Shown here: positions 7,013 to 63,457 of the stretch, piece after piece
Numbering within the stretch: position 1 is the first letter of the stretch
How the letters are laid out: the number at the start of each line of letters is the position of its first letter
Virus record (IMG/VR): IMGVR_UViG_3300010885_014582
Coordinates: 1-64,000 of that record
Reading direction: 5' to 3' (one strand)
Length of the DNA stretch: 64,000 bases
Source of the DNA: a virus
Program-made: the position numbers and the translations under genes
The notes under the pieces: generated by a model
Told to the model about the DNA's origin: nothing
What the model saw: the letters and a program-made list of their open reading frames with translations, nothing else
Database searches by the model: none

Positions 7013-7481
7013 GCCAGCCTCGTTCTGCTTTTGCAAGCGCTTGGGAGTCAATTTCTTTGGAGAGTTCGTCCCATCCTCTGATTGTCTTGGATTCAACCCA
7101 TTCTGGTCGTCCAATTCTTGGTACGGAGACAAGGAGGGATGCAATTCCTTCATGAAGGGTTTTAGCAATGGTGGTTGGATCGTTGTCAACGAACCAGTCA
7201 ACTCGTCCGTATCCTGCTTGGATACTACGAACACGCTCCAGTTTGGCATCGGCAGATGTTTCATCAGTTAAATCAATCGATCCTGCTCTGTAGCCTTCAC
7301 GCTTGAGCCACTCCATAAGTATAGGTGTTTTGTCGGGCTTGATTCCTGTAGCAAGAACGCAGATGCGACCCTGATACTGCGAGAACAACATGTTCCATAG
7401 TTTTCTTCCTTCGTTAAGTGGTTGTCTTGCACCAAGTTCTTCTCCCTCTAATGCAAGTACATCAAAAGTGATGACTATCAC
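7005..7481 (-). CDS. HAD-like phosphatase, degenerate active site
   Basis: A 158-residue HAD-fold candidate. Strand 1 reads VITFDVLALEGE, where the usual DxDGT is reduced to D-V-L. VLATGIKPDKTP fits motif II (Thr) and WFVDNDP matches the acidic motif IV, as in phage polynucleotide-kinase-like phosphatase domains. Because the second motif I Asp is missing, catalytic activity is uncertain. Overlaps: 4 bases with the gene at 7478 and 8 bases with that at 6740. Confidence 0.55.
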   Translation of the reverse strand: MIVITFDVLALEGEELGARQPLNEGRKLWNMLFSQYQGRICVLATGIKPDKTPILMEWLKREGYRAGSIDLTDETSADAKLERVRSIQAGYGRVDWFVDNDPTTIAKTLHEGIASLLVSVPRIGRPEWVESKTIRGWDELSKEIDSQALAKAERGWHD

Positions 7482-7945
7482 TTCTTATACAATCCCATTG
7501 CAATGCGCTCTTGCTCTGCAACCCACGATCCAACAGGGCAATACATACAGAGATATTGGCGCTTATCTGGTGCGACACCAATCTTGCGACCAATAGTTTT
7601 TCCTTCGGAGCACCAATCAATGCAACCACCCTTAGGGCGGTCATGCTTGTTGTAGCACTTCAACGCATCGACTTTTAACTCATCTCGGAAGTCACGAATG
7701 TACACATCCATCTCTCCCAACTCATTCTTGAGAAGTGTTTCCATGTCCAGTTTTTCAGCAGTTTCTGGATCGGTACGGAAAATAGATGCACGACAGTTAT
7801 CAGGATCAGGCACCTGTGCATTGTGTCGATTGCAAAGTTCAATTAACTCTTGATCGTATTCTGGAGGTCCGTCATAGGGACGAAGTTTCCACATGACGCC
7901 ATGCGTCTTGCAGACGAGAAGGCGGTCGTAACCAGTTTCAGCCAT
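7478..7945 (-). CDS. Cys-rich hypothetical protein
   Basis: A 155-residue protein. The C-terminal half has a cluster CYNKHDRPKGGCIDWC and YLCMYCPVGSWV, together likely a Zn or Fe-S site. The N-terminal part carries CKTHGVMW, which may supply further ligands. It overlaps the next gene by 4 bases. Upstream (7946-8002) there are 57 noncoding bases that could hold a promoter, although none is obvious. Function unknown. Confidence 0.6.
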   Translation of the reverse strand: MAETGYDRLLVCKTHGVMWKLRPYDGPPEYDQELIELCNRHNAQVPDPDNCRASIFRTDPETAEKLDMETLLKNELGEMDVYIRDFRDELKVDALKCYNKHDRPKGGCIDWCSEGKTIGRKIGVAPDKRQYLCMYCPVGSWVAEQERIAMGLYKK

Positions 7946-8002: not shown

Positions 8003-8218
8003 TTACATCGATGAAGAATTGTCTGCAATGATAGATGCGTCGTTGTGAACACGGTGTGCTAACTCTCGTGCTCGTGCTGGTGCACCAATGCCACGAAAAG
8101 TTCCCATGTGGGAGTTCTCACGAAACACAGAAGACTTCATACCGCTTGCTTCATGGTCAATTTTAATGTTCTTGTCGGGGTGTCCGTAGGACTCCAACCA
8201 AGGGTACATGTTTGCCAT
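8003..8218 (-). CDS. Small disordered protein (71 aa)
   Basis: Polar, with no predicted core: MANMYPWLESYGHPDKNIKI, then RGIGAPARARELAHRVHN. Its ATG overlaps the preceding stop (TAATG at 8218). It is the last member of the small-protein cluster 8003-13792. Confidence 0.55.
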   Translation of the reverse strand: MANMYPWLESYGHPDKNIKIDHEASGMKSSVFRENSHMGTFRGIGAPARARELAHRVHNDASIIADNSSSM

Positions 8219-8424
8219 TACAGCCCAGAGTCTGCCAGTGGGTGGCGGTCAGTGAAACTGTAAACCTCACCAGTTGGGAACTGAGACTTAGTTACTTGCT
8301 GGCGCAAGGTTGCTGAAGTTGGGTCAACCTCTCCACCACGATCTGGTGTGAGGGACTTGAACTTACCGTCTGTAGCGCCGAGGCGCATATCTCGGTTCAT
8401 TGAGCGGGAATCATTAACTGCCAT
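8218..8424 (-). CDS. Small disordered protein (68 aa)
   Basis: Basic and polar; contains DRGGEVDPTSATLRQQ and a C-terminal FTDRHPLADSGL. The GEVDP element recurs in the protein at 9004-9369 (RGEVDPDERR). No domain recognised. Confidence 0.55.
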   Translation of the reverse strand: MAVNDSRSMNRDMRLGATDGKFKSLTPDRGGEVDPTSATLRQQVTKSQFPTGEVYSFTDRHPLADSGL

Positions 8425-8443
8425 AGTACTTCTATTTTATCAG

Positions 8444-8743
8444 TTAGTTGGTTTGACTGCTGTATGTGTCCCCATTGGGGTTGCCATTTTTTTCGTAACT
8501 GGCTTGAGATGTAACAAAGGCATGACGCCGTGCTTCATTCTGGGCGTTTGCTCCTGAAAAATGACCAACCATTTTTTGACCCTCAAAAACTTGAGATATA
8601 AAACCATTTTCGTGATGACGAATCATAATATCTTGTTGTGGGTGTCCCCAGCGCTGGTTCTGCCATGGGCTTCTTGGCGTTGGTGTTGGATCTCTATGGG
8701 TGTCTCCATTTCCCCAAAGACCGTTTTTCTTATTTTTTCTCAT
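8444..8743 (-). CDS. Small polar protein (99 aa)
   Basis: Rich in N, G, H and Q: MRKNKKNGLWGNGDTHRDPT, then HHENGFISQVFEGQKMVGHF. No domain recognised. It starts directly before the stop of the 8744 gene and belongs to the same coupled string. Confidence 0.55.
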   Translation of the reverse strand: MRKNKKNGLWGNGDTHRDPTPTPRSPWQNQRWGHPQQDIMIRHHENGFISQVFEGQKMVGHFSGANAQNEARRHAFVTSQASYEKNGNPNGDTYSSQTN

Positions 8744-9010
8744 TTAGTTCTCCCAAACTTCACGGTGTTTTCTTTGTGCAAATGATTCAGTTGGATCGCC
8801 ATAACTTGACTTCTCTGATGGCTTTGCATCCCACAGTGCTTTGCGCTGGCGCTGTTCTTCTGTCCAGATAGGTGCTGTACTTACTGTAGTAGAGGTGCCC
8901 CACAGAGTGCGACGAGCGTTGCGGTCATGTGCACGGCTCCTCGGAGGAGATGTGATGGGTGCTGTGCCTGTGCTACCAGCACGAAGAATTGGGTCTTTCA
9001 TGGTTACCAT
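8744..9010 (-). CDS. Small basic protein (88 aa)
   Basis: A disordered, Arg/Thr-rich N-terminal half (PPRSRAHDRNARRTLWGTST) and a Trp-containing charged tail (ALWDAKPSEKSSYGDPT). ATG 9010 has GGGG just upstream; ATG 9001 is an alternative. It overlaps the preceding gene by 7 bases. No family recognised. Confidence 0.55.
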   Translation of the reverse strand: MVTMKDPILRAGSTGTAPITSPPRSRAHDRNARRTLWGTSTTVSTAPIWTEEQRQRKALWDAKPSEKSSYGDPTESFAQRKHREVWEN

Positions 9011-9369
9011 GAACCCCGTCGTTCGTCAGGGTCAACTTCTCCACGAGAACTGCGTCCCATAGTGCGACTAGTTGACGGTGAGGTAATAGATGGAGATGCA
9101 CCACTTGATGCACCACCTCTGTTTTGCCATTTATCTGTAAAGTATCCAGCAGCAAGGCGAGCATTACGGGTGCTCAGTGCTTCTCCTGGCTTCATCATAC
9201 GGCTGTCTTTTGTGTCAACATATGCGCCTGGATCACCATAATCACGAGATGTGCCAGCATTAATGCTGGGAAGGTCAAACCCTTTAGGTGTGAACGATGG
9301 TGGATCTTTCCACAGTGTGGGTTGAACACCCAGTGTTTGCGGAGTTCCGATTCCTTGTTGGTATCTCAT
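9004..9369 (-). CDS. Small disordered protein (121 aa)
   Basis: Begins MRYQQGIGTPQTLGVQPTLW. Ser/Gly/Arg-rich C-terminal third (GGASSGASPSITSPSTSRT). ATG 9369 is chosen because AAGGA is about 8 bases upstream and the start overlaps the preceding stop (ATGA). It contains LSTRNARLAAGYF, echoing the TRNA/QRNA element of the proteins at 10722 and 10997. Confidence 0.55.
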   Translation of the reverse strand: MRYQQGIGTPQTLGVQPTLWKDPPSFTPKGFDLPSINAGTSRDYGDPGAYVDTKDSRMMKPGEALSTRNARLAAGYFTDKWQNRGGASSGASPSITSPSTSRTMGRSSRGEVDPDERRGSW

Positions 9370-9674
9370 ACCCATAATCCTTGCATTGAATAGCGACTTG
9401 ATGATTCACTGTTTGCGTCCATAAATCCATCACGGAACATAACTGGCGCACCAGATTGCCATGAACGGAATGTTGGAAAGTTGCGATCGAGAGTAAGGCA
9501 ATCAGACACGCTCATTGCTTGCTTTTGAATACCACGGGTCTGTGGGAACAACCCTTGTGGCACTACAGGGCGAATCTTTCGTATCTCCTCAGGCGTGGAA
9601 ATAGCAGACATGAGTGCTTGATCAACAAGCATCTCTTGCCTACTTTGCCATGGCTTATTGGGATACTGAGGCAT
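9366..9674 (-). CDS. Small protein with PTFxSW motif (102 aa)
   Basis: Contains FPTFRSWQSGAPVMFRDGF (about residues 65-83). A related PTFTSW...SPVFRNG occurs near the N-terminus of the protein at 11728-12225, suggesting a shared module. The single Cys (SDCLTLDRN) is unremarkable. No function assigned. Confidence 0.55.
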   Translation of the reverse strand: MPQYPNKPWQSRQEMLVDQALMSAISTPEEIRKIRPVVPQGLFPQTRGIQKQAMSVSDCLTLDRNFPTFRSWQSGAPVMFRDGFMDANSESSSRYSMQGLWV

Positions 9675-9677
9675 TAT

Positions 9678-9887
9678 TTAACAACCTGAACGGGCTTTGT
9701 GAAATGGTGGAACACCAAATGTACGCTTTGGTTCAGATGCTTCTTCGTCTAGTTCTGATACATGACTAGCAATTTCAGAAGCATCAACGCCTCCCCATGC
9801 TGCTTTTTGTACAGCAATGTGATTAGCCATAATTGCTTCACGGTCAACACGACCAGCACCATTAGGACGGTGTACTCCACGGGGCAT
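9678..9887 (-). CDS. Tagged small protein, RPNGAGRVDR family, copy 1
   Basis: 69 residues beginning MPRGVHRPNGAGRVDREA. The first 16 residues are nearly identical to the starts of the proteins at 9891 and 10322, while the remainders are unrelated. DNA around the start, including bases before the ATG, is also nearly identical to the 10322 copy. The C-terminal part is acidic, then basic (PKRTFGVPPFHKARSGC). Confidence 0.65.
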   Translation of the reverse strand: MPRGVHRPNGAGRVDREAIMANHIAVQKAAWGGVDASEIASHVSELDEEASEPKRTFGVPPFHKARSGC

Positions 9888-9890
9888 TAT

Positions 9891-10109
9891 TTATCCCTCT
9901 TCATTATTTTGTGGGACAGAAGGTGTATTGAAATACTCTTCAAGACGACCTTGCGCTTCTTGATGGTCGGCTCGTTGTGCCATGCGATGGTTGTGCACAT
10001 CAATACGGGCTTTGGTTAACGAAGAACTGAACAGTGGGTAACGCATTGGTTTAAATGAGTCACGGTCTACACGACCTGCACCATTAGGGCGATTTTTTCC
10101 ACGAGGCAT
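9891..10109 (-). CDS. Tagged small protein, RPNGAGRVDR family, copy 2
   Basis: 72 residues beginning MPRGKNRPNGAGRVDRDSF. The body is unrelated to copies 1 and 3 and is rich in charged and His residues (VHNHRMAQRADHQEAQGRL). No hydrophobic core is evident. It sits 3 bases from copy 1. Confidence 0.65.
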   Translation of the reverse strand: MPRGKNRPNGAGRVDRDSFKPMRYPLFSSSLTKARIDVHNHRMAQRADHQEAQGRLEEYFNTPSVPQNNEEG

Positions 10110-10111
10110 GA

Positions 10112-10318
10112 TTATTTCTTCTTCTTCTTTGGGCGGGGGATACCTTGGGCTGGTGCCTCATCGGTGTCCTGTGAGTGGGTTACAGAAGGGTCTGCCTTCT
10201 TTGGTTGCATAGACGGGTGGTTCTGTCGAGGATCAAAGTTGACTCGGTAAACATTGCCTTCACGACTAACTTGTCGTCTTGGGCTTTGAGAAGTATCTTT
10301 ACCATCATTATTAGGCAT
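10112..10318 (-). CDS. Small basic protein with poly-Lys tail (68 aa)
   Basis: Starts MPNNDGKDTSQSPRRQVSRE and ends in a run of five Lys after QGIPRP. It looks intrinsically disordered and could bind nucleic acid. It lies between copies 2 and 3 of the RPNGAGRVDR family but lacks their tag. Confidence 0.55.
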   Translation of the reverse strand: MPNNDGKDTSQSPRRQVSREGNVYRVNFDPRQNHPSMQPKKADPSVTHSQDTDEAPAQGIPRPKKKKK

Positions 10319-10321
10319 TAC

Positions 10322-10543
10322 TTAGTAAGCACCTTTGGGATTTAGTTTGGCAGACTCAGGAAAATGAGCGTCTAATCCGCCGTCCATGTCATCCATAAGT
10401 TCTGGATTTTCTTTTTCATGCTTTTCGTAAGCCGTCATAGGTCGTGAATCCTGTGGATTCATTGTTTTTTTACTATAATTACCACCAAATGAAGCACGGT
10501 CAACACGACCAGCACCATTAGGACGGTGTTCTCCACGAGCCAT
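10322..10543 (-). CDS. Tagged small protein, RPNGAGRVDR family, copy 3
   Basis: 73 residues beginning MARGEHRPNGAGRVDRASF. The body is acidic (EKENPELMDDMDGGLDAHFP) and ends KLNPKGAY; a similar GAY ending occurs in the protein at 11344. The start overlaps the preceding stop (TAATG) with GGAG upstream. Confidence 0.65.
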   Translation of the reverse strand: MARGEHRPNGAGRVDRASFGGNYSKKTMNPQDSRPMTAYEKHEKENPELMDDMDGGLDAHFPESAKLNPKGAY

Positions 10544-10722
10544 TATTTGTCTCCTTCATTGCGACTGTCTGGTCGATTATTTCCAAGTGCTTCATCCAAG
10601 TCAGGTAAGAACTTTTCTGGGTGTTGTTCATACATGTTTGGGAACTTACGATTTGCCGATGCAAGAAGATAGGCATCCCAATTTTCCCAAATTGGTTTAA
10701 ACTGATTGTTATTAAGAGTCAT
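10543..10722 (-). CDS. Small protein (59 aa) between tagged genes
   Basis: Translated directly: MTLNNNQFKPIWENWDAYLL..., ending PDSRNEGDK. TAATG overlaps occur at both ends (10543 and 10722), which strongly supports it as a gene in the string. Its last codons include the GGAG ribosome-binding site of the next gene. No family recognised. Confidence 0.65.
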   Translation of the reverse strand: MTLNNNQFKPIWENWDAYLLASANRKFPNMYEQHPEKFLPDLDEALGNNRPDSRNEGDK

Positions 10723-10997
10723 TAGTTTTCGCCTCTTACACGGCGGTCTTGAACATCTTCAGCGATTCTAAAATATTGACTGTTTTGGAGTGCAGCGCCT
10801 TGACCAGATTCTCCTCCTACATACCTTTTACGGTTAGCAGGACCATATGCTTCGTCGTAGTCTGATTCTTCAGGGTTGTAGTTAACCCCACGAAGACCTT
10901 CATTGCGCTGTGCAAGCATCTCTTGTTGTGCGATCATTGCATTACGGGTGTTGAGGTATGGGTCAGCGATGTGCTGTCCCCTGTGGTTGTGTGCCAT
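10722..10997 (-). CDS. Tagged small protein, MAHxHR/IADPYL family, copy 1
   Basis: 91 residues beginning MAHNHRGQHIADPYLNTRNA. The N-terminal ~20 residues match the next gene (MAHDHRMNPIADPYLTQRNA). It contains GGESGQG, and GESG-type motifs recur in three other cluster members. The rest is polar and divergent, ending EDVQDRRVRGEN. Confidence 0.65.
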   Translation of the reverse strand: MAHNHRGQHIADPYLNTRNAMIAQQEMLAQRNEGLRGVNYNPEESDYDEAYGPANRKRYVGGESGQGAALQNSQYFRIAEDVQDRRVRGEN

Positions 10998-11344
10998 TAC
11001 TGACCTTCTCTTCCTTTACGCACTGAAAACCCATGACCAGATTCACCAAATGCAAGTTTTGTGCGGTCAATAGGTGCATTAGTATCTGGCATAAGATCAG
11101 CATCAGTTGTGGTGTGTTGGTCTAGATAATCGTCGTATTCTTCTTGCATATTGCTACGACCTTGAAGACCTGGTGATTCAGATGAATTCATACCATAGAG
11201 ATTGCGAATAGTTCCTACATCAGTGCCTTGACGAGCCAACTGTGATATGTCAGCAATACGGGAGTAGTCAAGCCCTTGAATTCCTGCATTACGCTGTGTG
11301 AGGTATGGGTCTGCAATTGGGTTCATGCGGTGATCGTGTGCCAT
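10997..11344 (-). CDS. Tagged small protein, MAHxHR/IADPYL family, copy 2
   Basis: 115 residues beginning MAHDHRMNPIADPYLTQRNA. Helical middle (YSRIADISQLARQGTDVGTI), acidic stretch, then AFGESGHGFSVRKGREGQ at the C-terminus. Its stop and start couple to both neighbours through one-base overlaps. Confidence 0.65.
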   Translation of the reverse strand: MAHDHRMNPIADPYLTQRNAGIQGLDYSRIADISQLARQGTDVGTIRNLYGMNSSESPGLQGRSNMQEEYDDYLDQHTTTDADLMPDTNAPIDRTKLAFGESGHGFSVRKGREGQ

Positions 11345-11709
11345 TAGTAGGCTCCTGTCTTACTTAATTTTTTTGCCATTGGGGGCGATTTTGGAGATGG
11401 TTTTGGTTTACGAGGAACAGTCGTTCCTCCAGCAGGACCACGGAAGTCTCCTTCTCCGTCGTCCCCATTTTTTTTCGGCTGTTTAGGCTCTTTCTTCATG
11501 TAAGGCTTAACTACTGAGTTAGTTGATTCCTCATTGCCCCATTTTTTTGAAGGTGTCTTCTTATACTCAGAAGGGTTATTGTCCCATTCTTGCCAAGGAT
11601 GGTTGATTAACTGCTTATCAGAGTTTGGAATTGAAACTTTAAAACCCTTGCCATGTCTATCAGGCGAGAAAGGTGCCCTATATTCATTTGGATCAAAGCG
11701 AGAAGCCAT
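11344..11709 (-). CDS. Basic, Pro-rich small protein (121 aa)
   Basis: Disordered: FDPNEYRAPFSPDRHGKGF at the N-terminus, then a Pro/Lys-rich half (KPYMKKEPKQPKKNGDDGEG and PRKPKPSPKSPPMAKKLS), ending GAY. Strongly basic C-terminal half, possibly nucleic-acid binding. No family recognised. Confidence 0.55.
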   Translation of the reverse strand: MASRFDPNEYRAPFSPDRHGKGFKVSIPNSDKQLINHPWQEWDNNPSEYKKTPSKKWGNEESTNSVVKPYMKKEPKQPKKNGDDGEGDFRGPAGGTTVPRKPKPSPKSPPMAKKLSKTGAY

Positions 11710-11727
11710 ATGAATATTTTAGACTAT

Positions 11728-12225
11728 TTAGCGCCAGCGTGGAGCGAGTGATTTCAACTGAGAACGGCGCTCAGGGCTAATCTGTGTTGCCTGATTAGGC
11801 TCGTCACCTCGTGGAATACCACGGGGACCTACTTTTCCGTCGTTTGTCAGACGGACAGGTTCAGCACCAACAGGAGAGAACCGCAAACCTTGTGCTTCTC
11901 TCTGTAGTCCTGTGTACATATTGAACTCTTCAGGCCAAAAGTAGTCAGTTGTATTGATTCTTTCACCTTTGTGAACACCACGGCTGTACTGGCGTGCGTT
12001 CATACGGCTTAGGGTGCCTAGAACTTTGTCTTGACGGCGGTTGGCGTCCATGGTGCCGAGGTATCCGTCTGGATACTGTGAATCTACCGCTGTGCGAAAA
12101 CCTGAAAGTTGTGCGTCTTTTCCGTTACGGAAGACAGGACTTGGTCCCATTGTGACAGCAGTGCCAACTCCAGGCGCTTGGGCTGGGCTGTTCCATGATG
12201 TAAATGTTGGTGTCTGCTGACTCAT
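11728..12225 (-). CDS. Cluster protein with PTFTSW motif (165 aa)
   Basis: The longest member of the cluster. The N-terminal PTFTSWNSPAQAPG and SPVFRNGKDA resemble the PTFRSW...VMFRDGFMDA segment of the protein at 9366. The middle contains MNARQYSRGVHKGERINTTD. ATG 12225 overlaps the preceding stop (ATGA), so the GTG at 12231 is not used here. Possibly virion-associated; no homologue recalled. Confidence 0.55.
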   Translation of the reverse strand: MSQQTPTFTSWNSPAQAPGVGTAVTMGPSPVFRNGKDAQLSGFRTAVDSQYPDGYLGTMDANRRQDKVLGTLSRMNARQYSRGVHKGERINTTDYFWPEEFNMYTGLQREAQGLRFSPVGAEPVRLTNDGKVGPRGIPRGDEPNQATQISPERRSQLKSLAPRWR

Positions 12226-12374
12226 CCCCACATACCTCCTGCTGACATAGATGGTCCAAGAACCCCACCGCCACCGCCTATGGTGGAAACAGGGCGTGCA
12301 GAACGAGCAATTGCTTTCTTACGCTCATACCTTTGGAGGGTGCGTGATCTAGATCGTGGGTTCTTATTTACCAT
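12222..12374 (-). CDS. Small basic Gly-rich protein (50 aa)
   Basis: Translated directly from ATG 12372-12374 to TGA 12222-12224. The N-terminal half is very basic (MVNKNPRSRSRTLQRYERKK), and the C-terminal half has a five-Gly run. It overlaps the upstream gene by 11 bases and the downstream one by 4. The basic character suggests nucleic-acid contact. Confidence 0.55.
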   Translation of the reverse strand: MVNKNPRSRSRTLQRYERKKAIARSARPVSTIGGGGGVLGPSMSAGGMWG

Positions 12375-12642
12375 TTTGATTATATGAAGAAGTGATGTCT
12401 TCCGAAGAGTCGTCAGGATTGAACTTATTAAGTGTTCCGCCCTGATAGGTGCCAGAGGTACCGTTAAAGGTCCCCCAGTGCGCTCCTGAGGGGCTTACAA
12501 GGTGTTCTGCGCCTGTGTTGTCCCTATGGACTGTAGCGCCCTGTGAGATGGCGCTGGAGGCTGTTTTAGCCCACTCGTTTCGTGAGGAACCAGTGGACTG
12601 ACCTTGTTGACGAAACTGACGCTGTCCTCGAAAGGTAGGCAT
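12364..12642 (-). CDS. Tagged small protein, MPTFxG family, copy 1
   Basis: 92 residues beginning MPTFRGQRQFRQQGQSTGSS. The MPTFxGxxxFR tag is shared with the genes at 13034 and 13204. The body contains GATVHRDNTGAEHLVSPSG, a strand-like pattern, and ends in N/Q/S-rich sequence. Start coupled to the preceding stop at 12642. Confidence 0.65.
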   Translation of the reverse strand: MPTFRGQRQFRQQGQSTGSSRNEWAKTASSAISQGATVHRDNTGAEHLVSPSGAHWGTFNGTSGTYQGGTLNKFNPDDSSEDITSSYNQNGK

Positions 12643-13034
12643 TAGTACTCTTCACCTTTGTATTCAATCTCAGATGGTGTCCCAAGGTGACCATGCTCCA
12701 TGAAACGGGCTACAGCGGTAGTTGGGTCCATGCCATGGTCTTGAATAAACGCTCCGACATGCTTATTGTACTTTTTTCCTCTAGTGCCAAAAGCACCTGC
12801 AACGATCTGCTCTGCATGCTTTGCAGTTGAGTAGTCATGACCAGCCAAACGACCACGGATGGCTGATTCTGGGCTTACTAGTTCCTGCCAAGCCTTTTGC
12901 TGGCGACGAGAGGCACGGCGGGAAAGACCTGTGCGCTCGTATGGATCAGGGGCATCGCCAAAAGAACCAACAGGGCGTCGGTCAATGCCATCTGCGCCTG
13001 TTTCTAAGGGTGTTACATAGGAGTCAGGATCCAT
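12642..13034 (-). CDS. Cluster protein (130 aa), partly folded
   Basis: Starts MDPDSYVTPLETGADGIDRR. A TAATG overlap at 13034 selects this start over one 33 bases further upstream. An Arg-rich helix (GLSRRASRRQQKAWQELVSP) is followed by a helical region (STAKHAEQIVAGAFGTRGKK and MDPTTAVARFMEHGHLG). It may be more ordered than its neighbours. No family recognised. Confidence 0.6.
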   Translation of the reverse strand: MDPDSYVTPLETGADGIDRRPVGSFGDAPDPYERTGLSRRASRRQQKAWQELVSPESAIRGRLAGHDYSTAKHAEQIVAGAFGTRGKKYNKHVGAFIQDHGMDPTTAVARFMEHGHLGTPSEIEYKGEEY

Positions 13035-13204
13035 TAGGAATCTCTTTCGTCGTATTTCTGGTGGCAATTAAGGCACATTGGGTCACCTGAGTAACTCTTT
13101 TCTGTGGCTTCTTCGTTGCACCCTGCACCTGTGCATTTTTCACTACTGCGAGAGGTACCTGTTCCCTGTCGACGGAATACTGGCTTTCCTTGAAAAGTTG
13201 GCAT
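13034..13204 (-). CDS. Tagged zinc-finger-like protein, MPTFxG family, copy 2 (56 aa)
   Basis: Translated directly: begins MPTFQGKPVFRRQGTGTS and continues with a C-x4-C...C-x2-C pattern (KCTGAGCNEEA and MCLNCHQKY), a plausible treble-clef zinc site. TAATG overlaps at both ends (13034, 13204). It shows the same tag joined to an independent small folded domain, which supports a modular tag. Confidence 0.7.
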   Translation of the reverse strand: MPTFQGKPVFRRQGTGTSRSSEKCTGAGCNEEATEKSYSGDPMCLNCHQKYDERDS

Positions 13205-13392
13205 TACCAACCTTCTCTTTGAGATTTGCGTCGCATAATATCTTCAAATTCATTGTCCAAAGGACTCCCAATAGGGTGACCACTTTCCCCAATGCGTTCT
13301 TTCTTGGGAGTTCCATCATGTGGGTTGTCGCCACGACCTGCGTTAGCGCCATTAGCGCCACGAAATACTGCATTACCGTTAAATGTTGGCAT
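13204..13392 (-). CDS. Tagged small protein, MPTFxG family, copy 3
   Basis: 62 residues beginning MPTFNGNAVFRGANGANAGR. Contains RIGESGHPIGSP, the recurrent GESG motif, and ends in a charged tail (FEDIMRRKSQREGW). Divergent from the other two copies after the tag. Confidence 0.65.
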   Translation of the reverse strand: MPTFNGNAVFRGANGANAGRGDNPHDGTPKKERIGESGHPIGSPLDNEFEDIMRRKSQREGW

Positions 13393-13441
13393 AAAAATCC
13401 TTTATTTATATAATATCTCAGAAACAGTACTCGTGTGAGTA

Positions 13442-13792
13442 CTAAGTCCAGCGAGCCATATCGTTGTCAAGTTGTGCATCATATGCTTGGTTTGCTGGTT
13501 CAGGAGAAGGGAATTGTGCACTACTAATGCCATGTCCTCCGCTTTCACCAGATCGCATAACCTGACTTGTCGCATAACTTCTTGCCATAGATGCCATGGC
13601 ACTTCTGGCTCCCATTCCTGCGCCAGCAGTTGCGGCTCCAGCGCCAGCGGCTTCAGCGCCAGCGGCTCCAGCAGTTGCGGCTCCAGCAGTTGCGGCTCCA
13701 GCAGTTGCGGCTCCAGCAGTTGCGGCTCCAGCGCCAGCGGCTTCAGCGCCAGCGGCTAAACCCAATGCGGCTAGTATTGCTGGTAAAGGCAT
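13442..13792 (-). CDS. Ala/Gly repeat protein (116 aa)
   Basis: After a short hydrophobic start (MPLPAILAALGLAAGAEAAG) about 40 residues consist of AATAG/AEAAG-type repeats. These are followed by a Met/Ser-rich helix (ARSAMASMARSYATSQVM), then SGESGGHGISSAQFPSPEPA. The repeat part could form a helical or membrane-active segment. The repeats come from 15-bp and 27-bp tandem DNA repeats, so copy number may vary. Confidence 0.6.
   Translation of the reverse strand: MPLPAILAALGLAAGAEAAGAGAATAGAATAGAATAGAATAGAAGAEAAGAGAATAGAGMGARSAMASMARSYATSQVMRSGESGGHGISSAQFPSPEPANQAYDAQLDNDMARWT
13626..13757 (-). repeat. Tandem 15-bp and 27-bp repeats within the Ala/Gly gene
   Basis: The 15-base unit GCAGTTGCGGCTCCA occurs four times in tandem (13671-13730) and once at 13626-13640. 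A 27-base block starting GCGCCAGCGGCTTCAGCG is present at 13641-13667 and again at 13731-13757. All units keep the reading frame. Confidence 0.85.
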
Positions 13793-13800
13793 AAGTCTCC

Positions 13801-14091
13801 TTATTTAATCACTGGTTTAAATGATATCGCAGAAATGGTATCTCCATTTTCACCTTTGATGTCATCAAATCCAATGATGAAAGTAAGGTCAATCCCTCTT
13901 GGTGCTACGAAACCACGGGAAATAGCGGCGGCTTTAGCCGCTTGGTTAACTGCTGATGCTCCAATAGCACGCATTTTAGGCAATTGCCCTGCGTTAATGG
14001 CACGAGCCAAAATGGATCCGACGGATTGAGGGTTACTAGAACCCGACACCTTCAAGACATCGTCAATAGTTGTGTTCAATTCTTGTGACAC
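13801..14091 (-). CDS. SpoVS-like (Alba-superfamily) protein
   Basis: A 96-residue protein clearly resembling stage V sporulation protein S. Matching elements are DVLKVSGSSNPQSVGSILAR (about residues 11-30), MRAIGASAVNQAAKAAAISR (about 40-59), GFVAPRGIDL and a final ISFKPVIK. SpoVS is a small dimeric protein of proposed nucleic-acid-binding Alba-like fold that affects sporulation and division in Bacillus. GTG 14091 is preceded by AAGGAG at 7 bases. It lies at the edge of the DNA-metabolism module, so DNA or RNA binding is the natural inference. Confidence 0.8.
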   Translation of the reverse strand: MSQELNTTIDDVLKVSGSSNPQSVGSILARAINAGQLPKMRAIGASAVNQAAKAAAISRGFVAPRGIDLTFIIGFDDIKGENGDTISAISFKPVIK

Positions 14092-18537: not shown

Positions 18538-18880
18538 CGTACATTCCATCCTCTTCTTCCATAACCAATATTATTTTTTCAGAATCTAGCAATTTGTTAA
18601 TAAGTGAAACACCATGCGATACCAGTATTCTGTGAAAACTATCTTCGTCGTCTGTTTCGATCTCGCCCATGTCGTGCAGTTCACAGAACCAATCAGACGC
18701 TTCAAGTACTTCTTCTAGAAGTCCCATAGTAGTCATTAATGCCCACCGAGCAATAATTTCGTAAGTCTCTGCTTCCCTGACTTCTTCTGAGGGTGTTGAG
18801 AACCCAACAGTGTCAGCAAACTCTTGACCAAGTGCTGGAGACAGCATGAGGTAGTACATCCGCTTGTCAACTGCACTCAC
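18530..18880 (-). CDS. Acidic helical protein (116 aa)
   Basis: GTG 18880 overlaps the polymerase stop (GTGA), the local pattern, so it is preferred over TTG 18895. Helices include YEIIARWALMTTMGLLEEVL. It ends in a strongly acidic tail (VMEEEDGMYDD) like DNA-mimic or SSB-type tails. No family recognised. Confidence 0.5.
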   Translation of the reverse strand: MSAVDKRMYYLMLSPALGQEFADTVGFSTPSEEVREAETYEIIARWALMTTMGLLEEVLEASDWFCELHDMGEIETDDEDSFHRILVSHGVSLINKLLDSEKIILVMEEEDGMYDD

Positions 18881-52524: not shown

Positions 52525-53139
52525 CTATTTTTTAGAATCTCGTTCTTGCATAAAGGATTGGAAGGGTGCTCCCGTGTATGGATCAAACTTACTAGCCACG
52601 GTAATTGCCTTATTTGCAACGGTTTTAGCCTGCTGTGGTGTCAACTGTTTACCTACCGCAAGGGTGTGTAAAGCGCCCAAAGCGTAAGAGGAACCTGTAC
52701 CTACAGCGTAAATACCATTGCTATCGCTAGTCCAAGAGTAGTCACCCTCAAGAATATAGATAGTCCCATGGACAACTACAATGATGGTTGACCCTTGTTC
52801 AGCAATATGTTCTTTGTCATCTTTTGCTGAGGAATAACCCTGCTCGTCAAAACAAGACCTAAGAGAAGGTATGAACTGACGGGTAATGAACTGATCAAGT
52901 TTCTTACCAAGAGTATTGGCAGGTGGTATTGGTGGAACAAACACATGCTGAAGGATGTTGATTGCTCGAACATCTCCAGCAGCGCCCATGATGTACTTAC
53001 CATTAGCGGCAATCTTGGATGTTCCAGCCCCAAGGGTAGTTACCTGATATGCCGACCCTGAGTCGTCAAATGAGGCAATACGACTATCTGTGCAAAGTAC
53101 CGCATAGTTGTCACCTTGGATACCCACAATAGTTGTCAT
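52525..53139 (-). CDS. Proteasome beta / HslV-like Ntn hydrolase
   Basis: 204 residues. After the initiator Met the chain reads TTIVGIQGDNYAVLCTDSR, so Thr2 would be the N-terminal nucleophile, with Asp18 at the family's position 17 and a Lys (SKIAANG, Lys42) as the basic residue. YIMGAAGD and GTGSSYALGALHTL match conserved HslV/20S strands. Ntn hydrolases of this kind form rings that degrade or process proteins. ATG 53139 overlaps the phosphoesterase stop (TAATG). Substrate unknown; capsid processing is a speculation. Confidence 0.75.
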   Translation of the reverse strand: MTTIVGIQGDNYAVLCTDSRIASFDDSGSAYQVTTLGAGTSKIAANGKYIMGAAGDVRAINILQHVFVPPIPPANTLGKKLDQFITRQFIPSLRSCFDEQGYSSAKDDKEHIAEQGSTIIVVVHGTIYILEGDYSWTSDSNGIYAVGTGSSYALGALHTLAVGKQLTPQQAKTVANKAITVASKFDPYTGAPFQSFMQERDSKK

Positions 53140-59782: not shown

Positions 59783-60907
59783 TTAGGGATTAGTTAACTC
59801 TTCTATTTTAGCCTCTAATTCAGACACTTTCTGGGACAGTTCCTGTATGGATTTTACTGCCAAGGCTATTATGGCATGGTGTTTCCACATTTGTGGTTCC
59901 GTGCCATTTTCTCCCTCTTCATGGTGAATAAGGTCTGGATTAACTTCTTGTATTTCTTCGACAATAAAACCATATTGGCGTTGGGTTCTTCTACAAAATA
60001 CTTCATATGGCTCATCCATTGAAGTGTGTTCTTCTTTGAAGATAAAGGTTCGTGGTCGTAAATTGTTAATTATACTTAAACCATTATTTAAGTCTTCTAT
60101 TTGCTCTTTATGGTCACGCAACGAAGACACTGCATTGAAACGGATTCCATAGGCAGGGGAACCAGTAACAGATAGCCTTACTAAAGCATTAAGAGAAGAT
60201 GAAGATGGCGGGTTGTAAATAAATTCATTTAGGCTCAATGTCCCGTTGCTTGTTACATTATTGAAAGTGACATTGCTTGTAGTGTCAAGTGCTTGGTTAG
60301 CACCTGGACCTGCGGGACCTGAAGGTCCAGATGGACCTGCACCGCCGTTTGTACCATTTGTACCATTTGTACCATTTGTACCAGCCACACCACTGACACC
60401 TTGTGCACCTTGTGCACCTGATGGACCTGCTACACCTTGTGGACCTGATGGACCTGATGGACCTGATGGACCTTGAGGTCCTGATGGACCTGCTACACCT
60501 TGAGGTCCAGTAGGACCTGATGGTCCACCAGGTGTTCCACTGACTCCTGAGACACCTTGAGGTCCAGTTGCACCTGTAGGACCTGAAGGACCACTTGGAC
60601 CTTGGATACCTTGAGGACCAGAAGGTCCGCTTGGACCTGAAGGACCAGAAACAGTCGATGGTGTACCGCTAACTCCCTGAGGACCACTGGGTCCTGAGGG
60701 GCCAGACGGTCCAGGAACAGTAGAACCTGGACCTGTTGGTCCTGCGGGTCCTGATGAATAGGCAAGCGCTGTCCATGCACTAGCACCATTGCCTACTTTA
60801 AATTTACCTGTGTCAGTTTCCGAACCTAGTTCACCAGCAGCAAGAGTTGGGTTTGCAGCAGTCCATTGAGCGGCTGTTCCCCTACGAAGTTGTATTTTAA
60901 TAGGCAC
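59783..60907 (-). CDS. Collagen-like tail fibre with S74 chaperone
   Basis: 374 residues. The N-terminal [20 protein letters not shown] shows a common fibre base. Residues ~55-210 are Gly-x-y (GPSGPSGP) repeats that form a triple helix. The C-terminal S74 chaperone reads [53 protein letters not shown] and [20 protein letters not shown]. Ends in a one-base overlap with the OB-fold gene. It recognises host surface; the trimer is likely. Confidence 0.85.
60300..60740 (-). repeat. Gly-Pro-Ser collagen repeat region (fibre 2)
   Basis: Runs of GGTCCTTCAGG/GGACCTGATGG-type units encode GPSGPS and GPQGVSG triplets, with a sub-repeat encoding GTNGTNGTNGT near 60345-60385. Length variation between isolates is likely. 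Confidence 0.8.
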
Positions 60908-61224
60908 TACACACCACCTGCGTTAATCTCATCGATCCCAACATATGAAGAATCAGGGAATCCCCCATCCATATTAGACGAAGAACTAGCGGCTGGTTCT
61001 ATTTGAACCCAAAACACATTAGTCAAGTTAGCATCATCCGATGTAACCACGATCTGCTCACCAATATCTGGGACAGCCCATGGGTCTCTACGCCCAATAT
61101 ATGAGATAGATACTTCGGAGTTAGCCCCCAGCAATGATGGAATCTTTACACGGATTTCACCAGTGGCGGTACTGGAATAAGTAACTAGCGCCCTGTGGAC
61201 AGGGGGTGTGTTTGAACTGTGCAT
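60907..61224 (-). CDS. OB-fold baseplate/spike protein
   Basis: 105 residues. [40 protein letters not shown] and VFWVQIEP give the beta pattern of the gp5/gpV N-terminal OB fold in baseplate spikes and hub proteins. The Ser-rich C-terminal end is disordered. It sits between the fibre and a small coiled-coil gene. Confidence 0.55.
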
Positions 61225-61365
61225 TTACTCTTCTGTGTCAGGCGTTTCGCCCATTGGGGTTGCTTGCATACGCTGTAATGCTGCCTTGTAAGCGATATTT
61301 TCCAAGGTAAGGCGCTTTACTTCGTCAAGTAGTCCGTTGATGAGGTCATCAGTTTGTAATTCCAT
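61225..61365 (-). CDS. Small helical protein (46 aa)
   Basis: Translated directly: MELQTDDLINGLLDEVKRLT, LENIAYKAALQRMQATPMGE and TPDTEE. A heptad-like coiled coil with an acidic end. Overlaps the end of the glycosyltransferase gene by 17 bases with AAGGAA before its ATG. Function unknown. Confidence 0.6.
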   Translation of the reverse strand: MELQTDDLINGLLDEVKRLTLENIAYKAALQRMQATPMGETPDTEE

Positions 61366-62434
61366 TTAAGGTTCCTTCTTTGATTTCATAGAATCCTTTG
61401 CCCCAGAGAGACAAAAGACGGTTGAAGTATCTATCATACAGCAAAGCGTTGGCATCTAGCCCAAAGCGGTTAACTGCGTACTCTCTAATGGCTTTGCGGT
61501 CAAGGCTTGGTGCCTTTTCAGCAGCCTCAATAAATTCCTGCAATGTCCGACAACGGAAGCCACTAACTCCTTGAACTACATTCTCAGGGAAAGCACCCCA
61601 GTCTGTGGTAATTACAGGAGTGCCACATGCCATGGCTTCAGCCACAACTAACCCAAATGGCTCGGTGTAGATGGTGGGGGCAAATGAGGCTATTGCGCCA
61701 CCCATTAGTTTGGCTCGTTCTTCTGTACCCACGACTCCTACATATTCTCCGTAGTCGGGAACTGTTCCTTGTCCAGCAATGATCAACCGCTTACCAAGGT
61801 GCCTACAAACATCTACTGCCACCTGGTAGCCCTTACGGTCAATCAATCGACCCATGAAAAGGTAGTAATCATCGGGAGTCTCTCTAAAGGGGAAATCCTT
61901 GATGTCAACATGACCTGGGATTACATCGTCAAAAAACTGACCATCCACATCGTGGGGGTTATTAGTTGCTGCTCCATAACAGACATGCATCCATGCGTAT
62001 GACTCAAACACCTTGTACTTGGCAAAGGTTCCACCGTAACCAACTTCGAACTCTACGGTCATGTGGTTAGGAAAGGCATCAGCAATTACTTTGTGTGCCC
62101 TTCCTCCAATAACGCAAATAAAGTCTTTGGGCTGGATCCTTTTGCCTATTTCCTCGATTGCAGTGTTGTTGAACTTTACCCAATGAGGCAGAGCGTAGTC
62201 AAAGGAGGCAAGGGAATAGTGTTTGCCCTCTAGGGAGTCAAGGCGCTCCTGCTCGGAAATGCACATGATGTTCTCATCACAAGGCGCATCAGTAAATTCC
62301 CCACCATAAAGAAAAACCTCATGGTTGAGAGATTTCATCATAATTGCAAATTTACGAACATTCTCAGTAAAAGCGCAAGCCGTGAAATCTAGGGTCGTAT
62401 TAGCGTGGGGTAAACCAACTACATGAAATCTCAT
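61349..62434 (-). CDS. GT4-type glycosyltransferase
   Basis: 361 residues with a GT-B fold. N-terminal RFHVVGLPHANTTLDFTACA; the C-terminal lobe has FMGRLIDRKGYQVAVDVCRH, RLIIAGQGTVPDYGEYVGVV and the donor-site EPFGLVVAEAMACGTPVITT (EX7E motif), then GVSGFRC. It transfers a sugar from a nucleotide donor. Located between tail fibre genes, it may glycosylate a fibre, or else DNA or host envelope. Confidence 0.85.
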   Translation of the reverse strand: MRFHVVGLPHANTTLDFTACAFTENVRKFAIMMKSLNHEVFLYGGEFTDAPCDENIMCISEQERLDSLEGKHYSLASFDYALPHWVKFNNTAIEEIGKRIQPKDFICVIGGRAHKVIADAFPNHMTVEFEVGYGGTFAKYKVFESYAWMHVCYGAATNNPHDVDGQFFDDVIPGHVDIKDFPFRETPDDYYLFMGRLIDRKGYQVAVDVCRHLGKRLIIAGQGTVPDYGEYVGVVGTEERAKLMGGAIASFAPTIYTEPFGLVVAEAMACGTPVITTDWGAFPENVVQGVSGFRCRTLQEFIEAAEKAPSLDRKAIREYAVNRFGLDANALLYDRYFNRLLSLWGKGFYEIKEGTLNGITN

Positions 62435-62446
62435 GCTGGAATACTA

Positions 62447-63457
62447 TCAGGAACCTTTAAGTGTGTCTACTTCTAGTTTAAGGTCTGCTACCTGAGAAGA
62501 CAGTTCTTTTACGGCTGATACAAGCAATGAAATAACATCGTTTGTTTTCCACATGATTGCTTTACGAGAGCCATCTGTGTCGGGGATATAATGAAGAAGG
62601 TCGGCTGATACTTCTTCTATTTCTTGGACTATAAAACCGTGTTCTGTGTAGTCACGGTGTAATCCTTTTTCAAACTCTGGGTCATCAGGTGCATCGTTCC
62701 ATTTGAATGTGCGTGGTCGCAATTGATTAACTATTTCTAAACCATTGTCAAAATCAGCAATGTCATTTTTTAGTTCTCTGCGTGAACTGCTTACTCTCAC
62801 AGCACCATTTGATACCCTTATTAAAGAAGTACCAGAGCCAGTAGTGGAAGAGTATGAACCAATCAAAGAAATTTCTGCGTTAGTAGCATAAATTATTGGT
62901 GTATCAATACCACTTTGAATCTGCCATAGACCAGCATTGCGCAAAATGTTAGACCCTTCATCTGAAAGGCTTGTTGCTGTGTACGAGGTTGAACCAGCAG
63001 GACCTTGAATACCTTGTGGACCTTGAGCACCTGTTCCACCAGCAGCACCTTGTGGACCTTGTGCACCAGTGCCACCCGTGCTTCCTGCTACACCTTGAGG
63101 TCCTGATGGACCTGATGGACCTGCTACACCCTGTGCACCTTGAGGTCCACTAGGACCTGCTACACCCTGAGGTCCAGTTGCGCCCGTAGTACCTTGAGGT
63201 CCCGTTGCACCTACAGCACCATTGGTCCCTGGCACACCACTCACACCTTGTGGTCCAGATGGTCCAGCAACACTAGAAGGGGTACCACTCACACCTTGTG
63301 GTCCTGTAGCCCCTGCTGGACCACTAGGACCTGTTGCCCCTGTGACACCTAGAGAGTTGACATTGAGCGCCCACTTACCATCTGTAAATGTCCAAGTTTT
63401 GCCGCTTACTGTGTAGTTATCACCAGGCGCAGGGGAGTTTGGGAAATCAATAGCCAT
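62447..63457 (-). CDS. Collagen-like tail fibre with S74 chaperone (second)
   Basis: 336 residues. N-terminal FPNSPAPGDNYTVSGKTWTF is a fibre adaptor, residues ~38-150 are GPSGPAGATGPQ repeats, and the C-terminal S74 reads SRRELKNDIADFDNGLEIVN, LRPRTFKWND, HGFIVQEIEEVSADLLHYIP and WKTNDVISLLVSAVKELSSQ. The N-terminus differs from the fibre at 59783; the chaperones are related. Upstream 63458-63491 is short. Confidence 0.85.
   Translation of the reverse strand: MAIDFPNSPAPGDNYTVSGKTWTFTDGKWALNVNSLGVTGATGPSGPAGATGPQGVSGTPSSVAGPSGPQGVSGVPGTNGAVGATGPQGTTGATGPQGVAGPSGPQGAQGVAGPSGPSGPQGVAGSTGGTGAQGPQGAAGGTGAQGPQGIQGPAGSTSYTATSLSDEGSNILRNAGLWQIQSGIDTPIIYATNAEISLIGSYSSTTGSGTSLIRVSNGAVRVSSSRRELKNDIADFDNGLEIVNQLRPRTFKWNDAPDDPEFEKGLHRDYTEHGFIVQEIEEVSADLLHYIPDTDGSRKAIMWKTNDVISLLVSAVKELSSQVADLKLEVDTLKGS
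63000..63345 (-). repeat. Collagen repeat region (fibre 3)
   Basis: Gly-x-y triplets (GPQGVAG, GPSGPQG, GTGAQGPQ) encoded by near-identical 9- and 18-bp units between about 63000 and 63345. Confidence 0.75.

Follow-up and report, generated by a model that had tools for sequence, protein, structure and literature searches.

The closest described systems are phage proteins that reach the head through their N-terminus. In T4, a conserved N-terminal stretch of 10–20 residues, the capsid targeting sequence (CTS), packages diverse proteins (PMC3012670, PMC9026906, PMC12373910, PMC5694885); ten residues suffice, and the bodies behind them are diverse defence antagonists (PMC3012670, PMC9026906, PMC12373910). 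In P1, an N-terminal stretch of DarB of 30 residues or fewer suffices to bring a reporter to the capsid (PMC9024508), and in the head ejection proteins of SPN3US and phiKZ-like phages, N-terminal segments are thought to direct the protein into the head (PMC5694885). Here, we describe a cluster of tiny genes with shared N-terminal peptides (tags) in the virus record IMGVR_UViG_3300010885_014582 (IMG/VR). The window analysed covers bases 1–64,000 of this 94,013-base record, and the cluster lies at 8–14 kb on its minus strand.

The T4 internal proteins IPI–III and Alt are small proteins with a short conserved N-terminus and unrelated hypervariable bodies, several per phage and in differing sets in related phages (PMC3012670, PMC9026906, PMC12373910). 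Both traits are present here: several small proteins with unrelated bodies have a short N-terminus in common, and the bodies are hypervariable and differ between related phages. With P1, the likeness is the N-terminal packaging signal of DarB (PMC9024508), and with SPN3US it is a pair of paralogues sharing 15 identical N-terminal residues (PMC5694885). However, no sequence similarity to T4 was seen, and the phage described here has three tag types, whereas T4 has one; its bodies are disordered and, on average, slightly acidic, and we found neither a gp21-type protease nor an (L/I)xE site. P1 has few Dar proteins, some of them very large, and their signal is not repeated on many tiny genes, while the proteins of SPN3US and phiKZ-like phages are large, mostly with long propeptides cleaved by a prohead protease. 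The mode thus resembles T4 and P1; what is new, to our knowledge, is the scale, the multiplicity of tags, and their swapping on one body.

We propose, with belief and doubt evenly balanced, that these genes are exchangeable cassettes in which a short N-terminal docking peptide (type A, H, or F) is joined to a cargo that is small and largely disordered. A partner common to the tagged proteins of a phage would recognise the peptide, and therefore any body placed behind it would be delivered to the same place, most likely the phage head. Recombination would import new cassettes and also shift bodies between tag types.

Tags are strictly N-terminal, sharply ended, and exchanged between bodies

A first-pass annotation, made from the letters of the window alone, had proposed three tag families, and all three were recovered. 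Three genes, with their starts at 10543, 10109, and 9887, belong to the M[PA]RGxxRPNGAGRVDR family (a variant of the A tag; blastp E 2e-9 to 5e-9), namely 10322..10543 (MARGEHRPNGAGRVDR; a related body in the closest relative, L004, carries MARGENTSNHPNRGVSR), 9891..10109 (MPRGKNRPNGAGRVDR), and 9678..9887 (MPRGVHRPNGAGRVDR), the last two being cassettes absent from L004. Similarity among these three proteins was limited to residues 1–23, with no significant match between the bodies, and DNA identity was 39–43 of 48 positions in the tag vs. 13–19 of 48 over the following 48 nt, where similarity has fallen to chance level. The gene at 10112..10318, missing from the list of that annotation, has an A tag in divergent form (NDGKDTSQSPRRQVSR; E 3.8e-4 against the A profile) and a C-terminal DEAPAQGIPRP motif; its L004 orthologue has a full A tag (MAKGKDTSRSPQRQVSR).

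The MAHxHRxxxIADPYLxxRNA family (H tag) has two members, with starts at 11344 and 10997 (blastp E 5e-8, residues 1–22), identified by H-tag comparison as 10997..11344 (MAHDHRMNPIADPYLTQRNA) and 10722..10997 (MAHNHRGQHIADPYLNTRNA), with only a weak 18-residue match between their bodies (E 0.002). By F-tag comparison, the MPTFxGxxxFR family (F tag) is present in the genes at 13204..13392 (MPTFNGNAVFR), 13034..13204 (MPTFQGKPVFR), and 12364..12642 (MPTFRGQRQFR), with E 8e-5 for one pair only; the tag of the gene starting at 12642 is too short to score alone in the window and is supported by the family profile from relatives. For the gene ending at 13034 the tag assignment stood, and its start was corrected to the ATG at 13204. 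A zinc-finger-like body had been noticed behind one of the tags; it lies in this gene, which encodes a zinc-ribbon-like CX4C-X14-CX2C pattern. Within the window, the blastp matches end at residues 19–23.

To follow the tags in relatives, we searched with the core protein g12225 and retrieved 80 loci, dereplicated to 57 different regions; genes were called with a codon-usage dynamic programme, which also recovered the genes of the window. Between the two anchor genes, the 56 complete regions hold a hypervariable set of 9–21 tiny genes each. The consensus of the A tag is M[PAS][RKN]GxDTxxHPxRxVxR (RPNGAGRVDR in the window variant), with an extended lineage-specific form, A′ (MAGHRDDGTFAEDKAHHPNRKVSR); those of H and F are MxxDHRGxPVGxNHRPTPR and MPTFxGxPVFR. 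With profiles, we detected the A tag in 118 genes (47 of the 57 genomes), the H tag in 53 genes (32 genomes), and the F tag in 23 genes (12 genomes).

Every profile-matched tag in the fetched loci lies inside the region and at the N-terminus: from residue 26 onward, internal matches at the same cut-offs were zero among about 205,000–215,000 positions per tag (204,649 for A). A wider scan for A, begun at residue 6, added only N-termini shifted by 7 residues, mostly A′, plus one late-start case. The end of the tag is sharp, since the information content of A is about 1.3–5 bits per column up to residue 17 and below 1 bit beyond; H and F behave in the same way. The tags are also nearly confined to one locus. 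When whole records of 16 relatives were searched, every A and H tag was in the region except one A tag (G003, contig positions 18650–18832). Strict A and H patterns among viral contigs matched this contig family and four others, one of which (L099) shows a core gene. No A tag was found in isolated phages, nor were host or prophage copies found in bacterial genomes. In the A1 alignment, conservation was too low throughout to allow a degenerate scan.

Tags are interchangeable between homologous bodies. After removing the tags, 56 pairs of homologous bodies differed in tag class at E ≤ 1e-3 (A/A′ pairs included). Excluding A/A′, 24 full-length cross pairs at E ≤ 1e-6, in nine body families, linked A with H or F. 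The strongest case was an A-tagged protein of L006 and an F-tagged one of L053 (68% identity over 125 aa, E 1e-58), followed by L037 (A) and L041 (H), with 70% over 101 residues (E 1e-51). In the window, the F-tagged protein at 12364..12642 has a homologue with an A tag in L009 (E 2.7e-8 after tag removal, 6e-9 at full length). The homology begins between −5 and +6 residues from the tag end in at least one partner in 22 of the 24 cross pairs. Thus, related genomes do carry the tags on different cargo, and the nine families, with different tag types between phages, are the opposite of what would have refuted the first-pass annotation, namely the same full-length proteins kept without tag exchange. 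Whole cassettes are replaced too: in L004, whose g12225 is 99% identical to that of the window, two other tagged genes stand in place of the two tagged genes at 9676–10093, and the similarity between both genomes ends inside the start of the tag.

Apart from the cluster itself, a second cluster of a relative (L108; G003:C1:16949–18832) holds GNAT-like proteins and small proteins that look ParB-like by eye, together with an A-tagged gene. Several of its proteins share a similar beginning, M.A.E[HS][LI][SN], which may be a fourth tag.

Selection on the tag peptide

For tags of the same genome on unrelated bodies, the proportions of synonymous (pS) and non-synonymous (pN) differences were 0.63 and 0.34, and between genomes they were 0.70 and 0.41, so that pN/pS is about 0.55 with pS near saturation. 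Identical residues used identical codons at a rate of 0.52 vs. 0.37 predicted from codon usage within genomes, and of 0.44 vs. 0.35 between them; these figures, as well as pN/pS, come from many non-independent pairs and are descriptive. Over the 118 genes with an A tag, the invariant Gly4 uses four codons and the invariant Arg13 uses six. Since codons vary while residues stay, selection acts on the peptide, and the pN/pS and codon-sharing figures indicate that the tags have a common ancestry, were in part duplicated recently, and are maintained at the peptide level.

The same data bear on two alternatives. Instead of a peptide signal, an RNA element acting in the initiation or coupling of translation could explain why conservation starts exactly at the start codon and why many of the genes are translationally coupled. 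However, codons vary freely at the invariant residues, and this variation ruled out RNA-level conservation of the tags and leaves the RNA element extremely improbable. The second alternative is that the shared N-termini are remnants of tandem duplication and recombination, with the 5′ ends serving as homology for exchange and having no function in the protein. The tags of the genes starting at 10543 and 9887, identical at 43 of 48 DNA positions, the codon sharing above expectation within genomes, and the breakpoint against L004 inside the tag start all fit such an origin. Nevertheless, pN is well below pS with synonymous sites nearly saturated, Gly4 and Arg13 are invariant despite their many codons, and homologous bodies carry wholly different tags, which is beyond the reach of homologous recombination inside the tag; we therefore regard this account as improbable. 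Near-identical tag DNA tracks recent duplicates in the pair 10543/9887, but not in general. The recent duplication of start cassettes, also raised in the first-pass annotation, thus holds locally; as a general account duplication alone is insufficient, because homologous bodies carry different tags and the tags are retained at the protein level despite codon divergence.

Tags of the same genome on unrelated bodies were more alike than tags between genomes (0.534 vs. 0.447; permutation 0/1000). The idea that tags follow the genome and not the body was set aside, because relatedness confounds the comparison (genomes whose g12225 is at least 90% identical reach 0.552) and the test per body family was non-significant (n = 7, p = 0.58).

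Proposed partner and destination of the tagged proteins

From the position, conservation, and exchange of the tags, we infer that they are bound by a partner; more cautiously, and by analogy with T4 and P1, the tagged proteins may be internal head proteins, packaged and possibly ejected with the DNA. The codon usage of the cluster is nearer to that of structural than of replication genes (p = 0.0055), which would weakly fit a late, high expression and lends slight support to a capsid destination.

Several points weigh against the head. We found no match to S77, S78, or ClpP-type proteases in the 94-kb record (the S77 search being without a positive control), and the T4-like (L/I)xE site is absent from the A consensus, which ends in RxVxR, and from the H consensus. 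We found no virion proteome of this phage, nor does the BRock paper report one. The bodies are slightly acidic on average (mean net charge −1.9 for the A-tagged ones), unlike the basic T4 internal proteins, and the cluster is placed after the replication genes, outside the head module. Three tag types in one phage exceed what T4 needs. Moreover, in the BRock-group Streptomyces phages, no tagged hypervariable genes were seen between the core genes, and therefore the tags would be dispensable for the function of the core. Regarding the tag-and-cargo system with a cleavable N-terminus suggested in the first-pass annotation, the architecture is well supported, with tag exchange in relatives, and the cleavage is unsupported: because no classical prohead protease was found, a tag directing proteins to the head would probably be retained, or be removed by some other protease.

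The core of the region comprises five genes, with matches to each window gene in 62–81 loci (gene counts below are loci with such matches). The SpoVS/Alba-like gene (13801..14091; 76 loci) is the conserved left anchor and matches phrog_35646, a ‘sporulation protein’ (E 7.5e-16); its orthologue in L078 passes the Pfam SpoVS model PF04232 (E 8e-21, 74 bits, cut-off 24). Protein g12225 (11728..12225; 165 aa; 81 loci) is highly conserved, with 75% mean column identity, and is predicted to be disordered (predicted local distance difference test, pLDDT, 51.9); its homologue in GiJojo, of the BRock group, was found at E 8e-21. The conserved g9674 (9366..9674; 102 aa; 71 loci) is predicted to be mostly disordered (pLDDT 53). 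The others are g8424 (8218..8424; 68 aa; 65 loci), with a BRock-group homologue (E 9e-7 in Alone3), and the conserved right anchor g7945 (7478..7945; 155 aa; 62 loci). BRock, LuckySocke, and GiJojo carry homologues of SpoVS, g12225, and g8424 in the same order, after the replication and before the lysis genes.

These neighbours bring in a third alternative, which we consider possible although rather unlikely: the tags would dock to a hub in the infected cell (the SpoVS-like protein, g12225/g9674, or a host protein) and not to the virion, and the tiny proteins would act as host-takeover factors or as components of a phage nucleoprotein assembly. The tagged genes adjoin the SpoVS (Alba-like) gene and two highly conserved disordered core proteins, a setting that fits an intracellular hub about as well as it fits the head. 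In addition, PV(M)FR, a peptide of the F tag, recurs in g12225 and g9674 and is absent from the rest of these loci outside the region, the GIPRP motif is overrepresented among tagged proteins (26 of 199 vs. 6 of 550), and one record has an A-tagged gene beside GNAT-like genes. On the other side, there is no direct evidence of an intracellular partner, and the codon usage resembles that of structural genes, a weak argument.

Beyond docking with the head as destination, a more speculative and rather unlikely extension is that the locus works as a combinatorial kit, in which at least three unrelated, interchangeable N-terminal addresses and recurrent internal motifs (GIPRP, TPR[IL], LPRL, and zinc ribbons) would be recombined into new disordered effectors; the body would set the host target, and the tag either the destination or the copy number. 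T4 is the precedent, as one N-terminal sequence loads a changing set of counter-defence proteins into its head. The cluster and its relatives represent a larger natural experiment, with several types of tag on about 200 genes and swaps on the same body, in phages whose hosts are probably actinobacteria. If the tags are packaging signals, ejected effectors of uncultivated phages could be recognised by a simple sequence rule, and new packaging tags might be gained as well; if the tags dock inside the cell, they would indicate a shared hub.

Gene layout and additional observations

The window encodes a contractile-tail phage, with major capsid protein, portal, sheath, and tube matching PHROG head and tail families, and its terminase shares about 45% identity with those of the Streptomyces phages BRock, LuckySocke, and GiJojo. 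Considering these relatives and the WhiB-like genes recognised by eye in the window, the host is likely actinobacterial. The minus strand carries structural genes at about 30–64 kb, replication genes at 15–28 kb, and then the small-gene cluster. In the head module, between terminase and portal, lies an HslV-family peptidase (52525–53139; phrog_1040, E 4e-26), which may take part in protein turnover or in maturation of the head. Collagen-like repeat proteins are encoded at 59783–63457 and at L111:6944–8257, several with a similar C-terminal part.

Between the SpoVS-like gene and g7945, we counted 21 tiny genes of 50–165 codons, all on the minus strand, in agreement with the earlier estimate of about twenty consecutive genes. 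Their linkage by stop/start overlaps held for about half: of the 22 junctions, 11 are overlaps, with 1 nt shared in eight (TAATG), 4 nt in two (ATGA), and 11 nt in one, and the rest are spaced by 0–57 nt. A promoter and terminator scan was not informative, and neither Pfam nor PHROGs gave recognisable enzyme domains among the cluster proteins searched, including a 764-aa protein of L078.

Following the SpoVS-like gene, the first open reading frame encodes an Ala/Gly-rich, variable tiny protein (13442..13792; 6 loci). Untagged variable proteins are encoded at 12642..13034 (small; 10 loci) and 11344..11709 (basic; 5 loci), a tiny basic protein at 12222..12374 (26 loci), and an untagged tiny protein with an orthologue in L004 at 10543..10722. 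Beyond g9674 lies a disordered protein of variable length (9004..9369), where relatives hold longer proteins of up to 631 aa, and the remaining tiny proteins are at 8744..9001 (5 loci), 8444..8743 (9 loci), and 8003..8218 (9 loci).

Other small proteins of the relatives deserve mention. At the cluster end in some of them (L078:16242–17462) we observed DUF6496, DUF6321, and, by eye, Dps-like proteins. Disordered or small proteins at L052:10301–11242, L078:10505–11119, and among the small genes of L108 have QLELF and QPSLF C-termini and a QLSMF N-terminus that resemble sliding-clamp binding motifs. A second small-protein cluster, adjoining tail-fibre genes and with weak GNAT-like neighbours, contains a match to an Arr-type rifampin ADP-ribosyltransferase at L112:2040–2405 (record positions 81040–81405, minus strand; PF12120, 25.6 bits, cut-off 25). 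Finally, a 503-aa protein at L111:1686–3197 looks by eye like flavin adenine dinucleotide (FAD)-dependent (tryptophan) halogenases and adjoins a 191-aa 2-oxoglutarate (2OG) oxygenase-like protein.

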